DNA of 64,000 nt from a virus. Made by a program: the position numbers and the translations under genes. The DNA lies in IMG/VR virus record IMGVR_UViG_3300036845_000196, positions 1 to 64,000 of that record, one strand, 5' to 3'. The notes under the pieces are model-generated. The model saw only the letters and a list, made by a program, of their open reading frames with translations. It ran no database searches and was not told the origin of the DNA. Shown here one piece after another: positions 21,979 to 29,119 of the stretch (position 1 is its first letter; each line of letters starts with the position of its first letter).

Positions 21979-22033
21979 TTTTTATTTTCTCTTAGGTCTT
22001 GTCAAGTCCGTAATGCCACGATACGGTAGCACC

Positions 22034-22573
22034 ATGAAGTGGAAACCAGTCGTCATCCGGGGCATCCTGCTACCATTTGAGGTCAGCGACATCGGTCGCG
22101 TTCGCAGCATAGACCGTCCGGATGCAATTGGAAGACGCCGCAAAGGCAAGTTAATAAGCCCCCAAATCGTTGCTGGAGGGTACGTGCAAGTAACAATTAA
22201 ACATAATTTCATTACCTACCATCCCCTAGCGCATACACTAGTCGCTTTCGCTTTTCTTCCGCCGCCACCCTCCGAATACGGACGACACAAAATAGCGATT
22301 AATCACATTAACGGAGTAAAAACGGACAATCGACCTAACAATCTTGAGTGGGTAACTTATCGACAAAATAGTGAACACGCTTCACGCGCCGGCCTTATGT
22401 TGATCGGAGAAAATAACCCAAATTCACGCATGACGGAAATCGATGTCAGGAAGATGCGAAAGCTTCACGCCGACGGCGTCGCTATAAGAAAACTCGCGAG
22501 AGATTTCGGATACAGCCGATTTGCCATCAAACTCGCCTGCGACAGGATTACTTGGAAACACATCAAAGATTGA
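22034..22573 (+). CDS. HNH homing endonuclease, opposite strand (179 aa)
   Basis: The only plus-strand gene between 2.7 and 34.7 kb. Domain order: NUMOD4-like start (MKWKPVVIRG then VSDIGRVRS), HNH core (HKIAINHINGVKTDNRPNNLEW), and a C-terminal resolvase-like helix-turn-helix (VRKMRKLHADGVAIRKLARD). The ATG at 22034 gives the canonical NUMOD4 start; 22013 is an alternative. The coding sequence is more AT-rich than its neighbours. Its 3' end overlaps the 3' end of the tail-collar gene by 150 bp in antisense. Confidence 0.8.
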   Translation: MKWKPVVIRGILLPFEVSDIGRVRSIDRPDAIGRRRKGKLISPQIVAGGYVQVTIKHNFITYHPLAHTLVAFAFLPPPPSEYGRHKIAINHINGVKTDNRPNNLEWVTYRQNSEHASRAGLMLIGENNPNSRMTEIDVRKMRKLHADGVAIRKLARDFGYSRFAIKLACDRITWKHIKD

Positions 22574-23566
22574 TCTAGCTAGCACAGTTAAGAGAATGGC
22601 CGTTTTTATGAAAGTCATGCCGTGGACGAGGCCGGGCGGGATATTGCCGGACGTTCCAGTGCCGGAATTGTTGACCGACAGGTTCGTCGTAGCGTTGGCG
22701 GTCAAAGTGCCAAGTCCGCCGGTAGTGACATAGAAAAATTGCACGCCGCCGCCGCCAGCCGAAAGCGCCTGAGCCAAACCGTGCTGGTGACCCGGATCGG
22801 TGACCGTGTGGTTGTGTTGCTGTAGCTGCTGGCTACCTCCAGACGCGCCCCACGTCGTGCCGTTGATGCCGGCACCGGCCACGGTGATATTTCCAGCGGC
22901 ACCGTTGGCACCCTGATTATCCAGCGGAATGCGATAGCGTGCGCGCAGATCGGGTACGGCAAATGTGGTGACGCCATTGCCCCCGAAGGCGGAGCCGACC
23001 AGCGCAGCGAGCGCCGTGAAAGTTGAGGTCGAATAAAGCGAGCCATCACACACGAGCCACGGCTGCACAGTGCAACGCACAATCCACGCAGGGGTTGCCG
23101 ATACTGCCAAATCCATGAACGACCCGACTTCCGGCATATCGACAAAATCTATGTCGGTGCCATCAAAGTAAACGTGCGTTTTTCGTCCTGGTGGAGCAGA
23201 GATCGCGTTGCCGCCTGCGGGGTTTGGCTGCAACTGCACATTGAAAGCGGTGCCTACTACGCATTTATTCTCGATAATATAAAAACCAGGCAGCGTGAAT
23301 TGGACGGCAATGTTTCCCGTGAGCGTCCCAGTGAATCGGATGAGAGAATTCTGACTCTGATTTGGTCCCGCTGCGGCCGACACAACGCCGGTCGAAGGCG
23401 TCGTCAGTAGCACCGTGGAAGCCGCAGACAAGCCCAACGTCACCGCGCCACCAAAGCGTCCATCGAGCGCAATTGCGTTGCTATTTAAAGGCGAGTCCCA
23501 AGTTCCACTGTCCGAGCCGCGGGTCGGCGTGGATAACAGAATGTTGCCAGTAGTCGGGTCGGCCAC
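22424..23566 (-). CDS. tail collar-domain fibre protein, C-terminus altered (380 aa)
   Basis: Begins MADPTTGNILLSTPTRGSDS. Residues ~165-215 hold a phage tail-collar-like domain (PAWIVRCTVQPWLVCDGSLY, FAVPDLRARYRIPLD) and ~240-310 the His-rich distal part (QQHNHTVTDPGHQHG). Normal members end shortly after a GMTFIKTAI-type strand; here the frame continues ~65 codons antisense through the HNH gene. The true end was probably near 22600 before the insertion, so the annotated tail may be non-native. Confidence 0.7.
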   Translation of the reverse strand: MADPTTGNILLSTPTRGSDSGTWDSPLNSNAIALDGRFGGAVTLGLSAASTVLLTTPSTGVVSAAAGPNQSQNSLIRFTGTLTGNIAVQFTLPGFYIIENKCVVGTAFNVQLQPNPAGGNAISAPPGRKTHVYFDGTDIDFVDMPEVGSFMDLAVSATPAWIVRCTVQPWLVCDGSLYSTSTFTALAALVGSAFGGNGVTTFAVPDLRARYRIPLDNQGANGAAGNITVAGAGINGTTWGASGGSQQLQQHNHTVTDPGHQHGLAQALSAGGGGVQFFYVTTGGLGTLTANATTNLSVNNSGTGTSGNIPPGLVHGMTFIKTAILLTVLARSIFDVFPSNPVAGEFDGKSAVSEISREFSYSDAVGVKLSHLPDIDFRHA

Positions 23567-26598: not shown

Positions 26599-27312
26599 TC
26601 AGCGAAAATAAGAATTCAAATTTGGCGCGAGAAGGAGCGGCACGTTTTCCGTATCCTGCGCCGCCGCGATTCGCCACGCTTCCTCCGCGTCATCTTTACA
26701 CAATTTTCGGAACGTCAGCCCGTCCATTCCGGGCGGCGGTGGATAAAGCCGCGAGAACCGCGACGTGAGCCCGGACACCATGGCATCGAGCCAACGGTAG
26801 GGCAGGTTCGGCGTCTCACCCCCAGCAAGCCCGGCGTCCTGAATCTGCGTGCACGAGAAATAATCGAACGTGTATGGCCCATTGCTGTCCGGCACTGGGT
26901 AGAACGTCACGGTCGGCGCTATGAGCCTATCCATCCAATATACTGTGACGCTGCCTTGAGTTTGTTGATTTGCGTAACTTAAATACTCAGTTCGGGAGAT
27001 CGGCGTAATATATCGACGCGACTCTTGGGATGTCCCAAAATTTAGAACCACGGAAGCATCAAGAATCAAAACAGTTTGCAAGGGTAAATTAATTGTTGCC
27101 ACACCAGGCGTCAGAACGACCTGATTCCTAACAACGGACCATAAATTTACTTGCCGATTGGACCACTCAACAAACAACAAATTAATTTCGCGCCTCGCGG
27201 TAAGCATATGTTCTTGGCGAATTTCGGGGGCACGAATATAAACTCTCTCAAATGCCGCAAGGACACATTCTCCATTACTCGGACTGAATATAAAGGTGCC
27301 AGAACTAGCCAT
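26599..27312 (-). CDS. virion connector-type protein, reconstituted after homing-endonuclease insertion (237 aa)
   Basis: ATG at 27312 overlaps the stop of the GIY-YIG ORF (ATGGCTAG). Residues 1-35 (MASSGTFIFSPSNGECVLAA, then FERVYIRAPEIRQEH) are nearly identical (30 of 35) to the first 35 residues of the upstream ORF but use different, AT-richer codons; this region extends to about 26930 before returning to the usual GC-rich style. The body (LLFVEWSNRQVNLWSVV, YRWLDAMVSGLTSRFSRLYP) resembles podovirus head-tail adaptor proteins such as P22 gp4-like. Confidence 0.65.
   Translation of the reverse strand: MASSGTFIFSPSNGECVLAAFERVYIRAPEIRQEHMLTARREINLLFVEWSNRQVNLWSVVRNQVVLTPGVATINLPLQTVLILDASVVLNFGTSQESRRYITPISRTEYLSYANQQTQGSVTVYWMDRLIAPTVTFYPVPDSNGPYTFDYFSCTQIQDAGLAGGETPNLPYRWLDAMVSGLTSRFSRLYPPPPGMDGLTFRKLCKDDAEEAWRIAAAQDTENVPLLLAPNLNSYFR
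27206..27312 (-). repeat. recoded second copy of a 35-codon 5' gene segment
   Basis: Codes the same peptide as 28104-28210 with five conservative substitutions, but many third codon positions differ (for example CGGATGTAG against CGAATATAA on the plus strand). It restores the start of the interrupted virion gene. Confidence 0.85.
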
Positions 27313-28210
27313 CGCACCACTCAAACGATAAACCGGCCGCTGCGCCACCCGCCACAGGACGCTTATCGCGCAGCGCGCGCTGGAGAGTATCGTGTTTCAT
27401 TCCATAAAACCGCACGGCGGCTTTCATGCTTTCATAAACCACACCATCAGTTAGACACCGGATCGCCTTCATTCGTTTTTTATTGGCGCCCCTCATATTG
27501 GTCAGCCATATCTCTAACGTTTCTGGCGTCGGCGCCTTGGGAGTGGGCCAGAATGGCCGACTAGCGGCGATCTTCGCAACGGTCTCGGGACTGCGCTTTT
27601 TACCAAGCCAATAGCGCGACGGGTTTAATGCGCGCGACGCCGTTCGCTTGGCAATGGATTCCGCTGAGAGCGTTGCGCCCAATCTTCCGCTAGGTTTCCC
27701 CTTGCGTGACTCACTCATTCTCTTTCGCGATTCTTCGGAGTGTTTCCAACCTTGCGGGCCAGACAGGCCACCAGCGGCGATATTGTACTGCGGCTTATGC
27801 TGTTCGATGAGTTCCCTCTCACGGCGTAAAGCGGTTTTGGTATCAACACACGCTTCTAAAATCGAAAATTCAAAATGTTCGGCGCCGTACTTCCGCAACG
27901 CTCTGTTAAATGCCCCTTCATAACCAGCCCTCGCGGAGGCCCGATGCCCGCGCGACCGGACGCGCAAACCCCTTGCGGTCATGCCAATATATCGCTTGCC
28001 GTTTATCTTGTTAACGGCTTGATACACAATGATTAATGGACCATCTTCCATATCGGAAATATAGCACAAATCGGGAACTTCCGCAAGTCTTCCGCAGCGC
28101 CTGATGTGTTCCTGGCGCAGTTCCGGCGCGCGGATGTAGACGCGCTCGAAGGCGGCGAGGACGCATTCGCCGTTCGAGGGGCCGAAAACGTAAGTGCCAG
28201 AACTCGTCAC
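27305..28210 (-). CDS. GIY-YIG homing endonuclease fused to a duplicated virion-gene start (301 aa)
   Basis: Residues 1-35 are the virion protein start (MTSSGTYVFGPSNGECVLAA). After a ~20-residue junction the GIY-YIG domain follows (LIIVYQAVNK, RYIGMTARGLRVR), with the catalytic-type Arg and a Glu further on (RRERELIEQHKPQYN). Then NUMOD3-like repeats (SESRKGKPSGRLG, LGKKRSPETVAKIAASR) and a C-terminal DNA-binding element (YESMKAAVRFYGMKHDTLQ). An internal ATG at 28051 could start the nuclease alone. The enzyme interrupts the original gene, whose function is restored downstream. Confidence 0.8.
   Translation of the reverse strand: MTSSGTYVFGPSNGECVLAAFERVYIRAPELRQEHIRRCGRLAEVPDLCYISDMEDGPLIIVYQAVNKINGKRYIGMTARGLRVRSRGHRASARAGYEGAFNRALRKYGAEHFEFSILEACVDTKTALRRERELIEQHKPQYNIAAGGLSGPQGWKHSEESRKRMSESRKGKPSGRLGATLSAESIAKRTASRALNPSRYWLGKKRSPETVAKIAASRPFWPTPKAPTPETLEIWLTNMRGANKKRMKAIRCLTDGVVYESMKAAVRFYGMKHDTLQRALRDKRPVAGGAAAGLSFEWCDG
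28104..28210 (-). repeat. original copy of the 35-codon 5' gene segment
   Basis: GC-rich coding in the style of neighbouring virion genes; this is likely the ancestral 5' end of the connector gene, now separated from its 3' part by the endonuclease. Confidence 0.85.
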
Positions 28211-29119
28211 TTAAAATCCCCAATAAGCGTGTTGATTGCTATTAAGCGCCGTGCGCTGGGTGCCGGTGAAGGCGACGTTGTCCCAGGCGCCACCTTCTGT
28301 CATTTCGGCTGTAACAGTCCCCTGCGTAAGGCCCACCAAAGGAGCGGCAGTAGTTGTAGAACCTGTTGCTGTGTTAGTAGCCTCCGTTCCATCTACATTT
28401 AAGACAGAACTTGTACCAGTGATAACTCCGTTACCGGCGTGCCAGGAGCCATCTGCAACACTGGTTCTCGCAACAAATCCAGACGTTCCTCCAACTATTC
28501 TCCATACGTTGGCGGCGGCGTTCGCGATAATTCTATTTCCCGCCGCGGCTCCGCCGGCATTTTCACCGGCAAACACAAAAGCCGCCGTGCCGGTTGTACG
28601 ATTGGCAACTGTACTGAGAGAAACCACACCAGTTGCTGGTGTGAAGTTCCCAGAGGCAGACATTGTAGCAGATGAATTTGAAAAATTAAGACACGGCAAC
28701 GCGCCGAGCGCATTTAACACCACCGCAGGCTGGTTAGCCGCCGTCGGCTGCACGACGTGATTACCGTTGCCGGTTTGGTCATACAGCTTAGAACACGTTC
28801 CCGTTGTCGCCGCCAAAAACGTTGTCAACGTCGCAACGTCGAGATTGCCGTTGGCAAGAACATTGATCGTGATGGTCGTGCTATCCGAAGCCCGAAGCAC
28901 GTCCATCGCCGGATTGTTGCCCGGCGCCGCATAGGCTGCGCTATAGCCGCGCAATCCCCACCACATCGAAGCGCTGGCGACAAGATCGCCAGGTCCGACA
29001 TAACTGGCTGGAGGCGCGGACGTTCCCGGCAACACGGTATTATCGCCCGTTGGCGCACCGTTGACGATTCCTGCCGTACTCGCCGTCAGGACCGAGTTAT
29101 TTCCCGTCGGATCGGCCAT
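28211..29119 (-). CDS. fibre protein with arabinofuranosidase/concanavalin-like domain (302 aa)
   Basis: Begins MADPTGNNSVLTASTAGIVN, the same MADPTG start used by the next gene. From about residue 60 the pattern WGLRGYSAAYAAPGNNPAMD, ADGNLD-type, FLAATTGTCSKLYDQTGNGN, and a lectin-like strand set (CLNFSNSSATMSASGNF, GSWHAGNGVITGTSSVLNVD) matches phage and bacterial proteins of the ArabFuran-catalytic/concanavalin-A-like fold. This suggests a glycan-binding or depolymerase fibre. The catalytic residues cannot be judged here. Confidence 0.65.
   Translation of the reverse strand: MADPTGNNSVLTASTAGIVNGAPTGDNTVLPGTSAPPASYVGPGDLVASASMWWGLRGYSAAYAAPGNNPAMDVLRASDSTTITINVLANGNLDVATLTTFLAATTGTCSKLYDQTGNGNHVVQPTAANQPAVVLNALGALPCLNFSNSSATMSASGNFTPATGVVSLSTVANRTTGTAAFVFAGENAGGAAAGNRIIANAAANVWRIVGGTSGFVARTSVADGSWHAGNGVITGTSSVLNVDGTEATNTATGSTTTAAPLVGLTQGTVTAEMTEGGAWDNVAFTGTQRTALNSNQHAYWGF

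Follow-up and report, generated by a model that had tools for sequence, protein, structure and literature searches.

We found that the start of a connector gene is present twice in a 64,000-nt stretch of phage DNA (positions 1 to 64,000 of IMG/VR record IMGVR_UViG_3300036845_000196, a metagenome-derived virus record of 65,847 bases; hereafter the window), once on either side of a GIY-YIG endonuclease gene. The explanation that we consider probable is that this free-standing gene was copied in from a donor phage together with the adjoining connector start, with the native start left behind as a scar. The architecture, the identity of the native copy, a break in composition and the occurrence of the same endonuclease–connector arrangement elsewhere are the established part of this explanation, the evidence on the window's own element coming from one metagenomic contig.

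Two copies of a connector gene start flank a GIY-YIG endonuclease gene

With the complete connector protein as query we obtained 31 viral contigs carrying a connector relative, and more using alignments; the comparative set comprised 79 distinct connector genes, and L-numbers (L001 and so on) denote the viral contigs or loci that carry connector relatives. The protein has no Pfam family match and matches PHROG 12985, of unknown function. Its relatives in annotated phages are named tail adaptor, adaptor, 'Pam1 adaptor protein' or portal-adaptor, and the gene lies downstream of that for the major head protein. Because PDB profile searches with the connector matched no solved structure (nor did those with the endonuclease), the name connector, or tail adaptor, rests on these annotations and on gene position.

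The first-pass annotation had placed the first 35 connector codons both at 28104–28210 and at 27206–27312, describing the former as GC-rich and in frame with the endonuclease and the latter as AT-richer with mostly synonymous changes, and it had taken the inserted gene for a GIY-YIG endonuclease; all of this, coordinates included, holds (Table 1). Between the two copies 10 codons are the same, 19 are synonymous and six are replaced, a similarity far above chance (protein search E = 2e-16). The copy fused to the endonuclease frame starts with GTG and has a GC3 of ~0.8, versus ATG and 0.31 for the start of the complete gene.

Table 1. Features of the connector–endonuclease locus in the window.
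Feature	Position	Strand	Basis or remark
Upstream structural gene, stop TAA	28211-28213	-	GTG of remnant comes immediately after
Native remnant, connector codons 1-35, GTG start	28104-28210	-	74/107 nt identity to 27206-27312; pairs with L001 in tree
Possible further remnant, net 4-nt loss just after codon 35	28089-28103	-	Gapped alignments to L001, L012 and L016 extend through
Open frame fusing remnant and endonuclease, 301 aa	27305-28210	-	Predicted open frame
GIY-YIG/NUMOD3 endonuclease gene, 248 aa, own ATG at 28051	27305-28051	-	Pfam and PHROG matches
Endonuclease stop overlapping connector ATG, ATGGCTAG	27305-27312	-	Sequence
Complete connector gene, 237 aa, ATG at 27312	26599-27312	-	Open frame
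Probably imported AT-rich 5' part of complete connector gene, codons 1-125	26937-27312	-	GC3 and change point
Native 3' part of connector gene	26599-26936	-	GC3 0.71; pairs with L001 in tree, support 0.997

A stop-free segment of 52 bp separates the 35-codon remnant from the endonuclease ATG, and the endonuclease gene is followed by the connector with no gap. The in-frame fusion may be incidental, since the endonuclease has its own ATG; speculatively, the GTG of the remnant may now drive endonuclease translation, as inspection revealed no obvious ribosome-binding site ahead of that ATG. A promoter scan listed none just upstream of the endonuclease, with no excess over shuffles. The remnant may extend ~15 bp beyond codon 35, to ~28089, and the left junction of the import would lie within 28089–28103 or at 28104, that is, placed to ~15 bp. 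Directly upstream of the remnant, 28211–29119 (minus strand) encodes a virion protein with a partial match to arabinofuranosidase B (Pfam, 5.9e-8), for which no counterpart was seen at the equivalent place in L001. Elsewhere in the window, a NUMOD4/HNH endonuclease gene (22013–22573, plus strand) lies on the opposite strand to an ORF at 22424–23566 and overlaps its end.

The endonuclease matches the Pfam families GIY-YIG (1.1e-11, above the curated cut-off) and NUMOD3 (5.9e-8), a modular DNA-binding part, as well as PHROG 314, homing endonuclease (4.9e-32), and has in common with the endonucleases of L036 and L037 the GIY-YIG motif and the conserved R, H, E and N positions of the catalytic domain. 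No Rfam family, introns included, reached its gathering threshold in the window, and a group I intron was rejected both for this reason and because the flanks of the endonuclease gene leave no room for one. The gene thus lies outside any intron or intein, beside the connector, and has the same placement upstream of the connector in other phages. It appears to be of the free-standing (intronless) homing type, with predicted homing activity.

The copy fused to the endonuclease is the native one

In the nearest relative, L001/L002, the connector gene is uninterrupted. Over the 35 codons, L001 is 94% identical in amino acids and 76% in nucleotides to the endonuclease-fused copy, compared with 83% and 68% to the start of the complete gene, so that a relative without the insert matches the upstream copy better. 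In a tree of codons 1–125 the remnant pairs with L001 (support 0.81) and the window's complete gene falls outside the pair (0.93), supports that are modest over so short a stretch, and in the tree of codons 126–237 the window's connector itself pairs with L001 (Table 1). Codon usage along the locus breaks inside the complete gene, GC3 being 0.38 over codons 1–125 and 0.71 thereafter, with the best change point at codon 125 (~26937); its score was reached in 0 of 2000 permutations and is the highest among the 79 connector genes. Close relatives lack such a 5' block except for L018, which has a dip in GC3 and itself carries an upstream endonuclease, while GC3 is 0.54–0.77 in neighbouring structural genes and 0.57 in the endonuclease.

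Since L001 is closer to the fused copy and GC3 changes abruptly at codon 125, the fused copy is the native remnant, and the endonuclease plus ~375 bp of gene start are probably the import. The first-pass annotation had seen the AT-rich tract as reaching into the gene by co-conversion of flanking sequence, which our analysis bears out, with a length by change point of ~375 bp rather than the ~280 bp it gave. At the thresholds used, no duplicated connector start was found in the viral contigs of the relatives. The apparent start codon of the L001 connector gene (L001:2182) is the rare ATT; AGGAG lies a few bases before it, and a stop codon in the same frame closely precedes the gene.

The presence of the same 35 codons in two adjacent copies could also reflect a tandem duplication of the start within the phage, in which the endonuclease inserted between the copies and one of them then drifted to AT-rich codons. 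We rejected this very unlikely course of events because the composition tract continues beyond the duplicated part, extending 90 codons past it and stopping abruptly inside the gene. Moreover, the remnant pairs with L001 rather than with the other copy, and the overlap between endonuclease and connector genes is already present in other phages (see below).

The probably imported start differs no more than its codon usage predicts

Synonymous divergence of the complete gene's start has reached saturation, and its codon choice is shifted towards AT. When synonymous codons were shuffled within the AT-rich tract, the expected number of codon matches to the remnant was 6.8 (10 observed), and that of matches to L001 over codons 1–125 was 31.7 (34 observed). 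Directed recoding for immunity, by which the element had been proposed to protect itself from its own cleavage, is therefore unsupported, the differences being no larger than codon usage predicts; resistance to the enzyme through divergence of the start is plausible. The mostly synonymous character of the changes, and the diverged AT-rich patches at other connector ends near endonucleases (in L018, and at the 3' end in L096 and L101), would fit an adaptive immunity patch, that is, a start recoded in place by selection for enzyme resistance. We nevertheless regard recoding in place as unlikely, given that matches to the codons of the remnant and of relatives do not fall below chance for the codon usage, that the ~375-bp tract far exceeds an endonuclease target, and that the duplicate would still require import or duplication.

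Related endonucleases adjoin connector genes in other phages

The nearest endonucleases in viral contigs, 33–36% identical to that of the window, also lie directly upstream of a connector gene. Seven of the 79 connector genes have a GIY-YIG-family gene in this position (the window, L006, L018, L036, L037, L104 and L105, the last with the catalytic part lost), and in all seven the endonuclease stop overlaps the connector start, the overlap being ATGA in L006, L018 and L105, ATGGCTAG or ATGGCTAA in the window and L104, and ATGCCTCAGACCACTAG in L036 and L037. A GIY-YIG gene lies directly downstream of the connector in 12 of the 79, including L104 and L105 (the others being L016, L019, L022, L027, L032, L056, L064, L071, L096 and L099). 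These upstream and downstream occurrences point to the connector gene as a repeated target, and it is a putative homing hotspot on both sides.

The stop/start overlap shared by distant phages indicates that an endonuclease with an adjoining connector start is an old arrangement that predates the window. Because the same family occurs free-standing upstream with an overlap elsewhere, the endonuclease and its adjoining start seem to be the unit of transfer, with the extra start as a scar. The first-pass reading of an insertion that interrupts the gene but brings a restoring start was thus right about the imported start and the displaced native one, but the element is more than a simple gene-interrupting insertion. 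The metagenomic origin of the record might raise the suspicion of an assembly chimera of two related phages from one sample; this is highly improbable, as the exact sequence common to the copies (74/107) is too scant to mislead an assembler and the endonuclease–connector overlap is exact and is found again in contigs independent of this one.

For the window itself the only empty-site comparator is the more distant L001, but empty and occupied alleles at one site are found in the close relatives L134 (without endonuclease) and L078/L079 (with). The connector of L134 overlaps the gene before it by ATGA, and the endonuclease of L078/L079 sits exactly at that junction. The first ~28 bp of their connector differ strongly from L134, whereas the following 170–185 bp are 94.6% (L078) and 89.5% (L079) identical to it. 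The insertion in L078/L079 is thus clean on its left side and on its right brings a short new start for the gene, and the window appears to follow the same pattern, with a longer right tract and a faulty left junction.

Other candidate regularities were rejected. An upstream endonuclease does not entail an AT-rich gene start, which is clear only in the window and L018, with little or no AT shift in L036, L037, L104 and L105. Nor could we maintain that starts beside an endonuclease are more diverged: all four usable pairs point in this direction (values of −0.21 to −0.35, the controls having a mean of −0.01 and an sd of 0.12), but some control pairs were as extreme. The segment SSTYGFLP upstream of the endonuclease in L104 was too short to be claimed as a second remnant.

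Variation was also seen elsewhere in connector genes. In L058 (1024–1731) the 3' end, from codon ~213 on, is AT-rich (GC3 0.29) and ~30% diverged from the near-identical siblings L055–L057; no endonuclease now follows the connector there, sibling L056 has a GIY-YIG gene exactly at that place, and the diverged end may be the trace of a lost endonuclease. Compared with other relatives, L027–L031 and L130–L133 carry ~75 extra codons inside the connector gene near codon 75, which are in frame in L027 and L031, while L130 reads as two frames there.

A proposed origin for the window's element

The import that we favour would start from a donor phage with the endonuclease directly upstream of the connector, its stop codon overlapping the connector start. 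The enzyme would have cut the recipient's connector gene near codons 36–41; the adjacent codons 26–37 are among the top conserved of 225 windows, other stretches being equally conserved. On the right side, homology repair with the donor connector, resolved near codon 125, would have replaced the start by the diverged donor version. On the left, joining that used microhomology or no homology at all would have attached the broken native end in front of the endonuclease gene, possibly at a net cost of 4 nt. The outcome would be a complete connector gene, with ~35 native codons kept as a scar that forms the leader of the endonuclease frame.

Searches for the donor in viral contigs, phage records and GTDB genomes found none, and one uniformly AT-rich donor is not obvious, because the endonuclease is less AT-rich than the imported start. 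Both points count against the import account, as do the small or absent AT shift in L036, L037, L104 and L105 and the restriction to one contig. Tentatively, and with rather less confidence than we attach to the import itself, it is possible that across a broad phage group the connector start and the GIY-YIG gene overlapping it from upstream travel as a single mobile unit, which supplants the start of the recipient's gene at each transfer, the borrowed start giving resistance and tying the element to an essential gene.

Discussion

Mobile ORFs that carry a duplicated gene end are known from fungal mitochondria, in atp6 of Allomyces macrogynus and in atp6, atp9, cox2 and nad3 of Glomus sp., where the ORF supplies a C-terminal end of foreign origin, diverged mainly at synonymous positions, and the native end stays behind (PMC3630166). 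The window likewise combines an endonuclease ORF with an apparently imported, synonymously diverged gene end, the native end being kept on the far side of the endonuclease as a duplicate that matches relatives. In the fungi, however, the 3' end is replaced, in mitochondria and mostly by LAGLIDADG enzymes (GIY-YIG in atp9), whereas here it is the 5' end, in a phage and with a GIY-YIG/NUMOD3 enzyme. Judged from its sequence, the window's element thus appears to join the free-standing (intronless) homing kind with a 5' mirror image of the fungal gene-end-replacing elements.

In intronless homing by the seg genes of phage T4, flanking sequence is inherited along with the endonuclease gene. The available part of the published account describes these genes (segF/gene 56, segG/gene 32) as free-standing GIY-YIG genes that cut the adjoining essential gene and are inherited at high frequency (PMC2988022). 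To that extent they resemble the window, where a free-standing GIY-YIG gene also lies beside an essential gene that is its predicted target, and we count them as a precedent for the import mechanism; the same part describes neither a duplicated start nor a left-behind scar. The window differs further in that the endonuclease stop overlaps the start of the target gene and in belonging to a phage group unrelated to T4. In relatives of phage ICP1, according to the portion of that study available, islands of homing endonucleases cluster around core genes and mark the edges of genetic exchange (PMC10448857). Endonuclease genes cluster around core genes here as well; those of the ICP1 relatives are of the T5orf172 type with multi-gene cargo, and that portion describes no gene-start scar. 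A limited search of the open-access literature found no phage report of a comparable scar.

The window preserves an event that homing normally erases, with the native start, the endonuclease and the probably imported start side by side, and from this juxtaposition one can read the probable region of the target, where the left junction lies and how far co-conversion extended. The overlap of endonuclease and connector genes in distant phages suggests a placement where clean loss would damage an essential gene. The gene-end replacement of fungal mitochondria would thereby extend to phages, at the opposite end of the gene.
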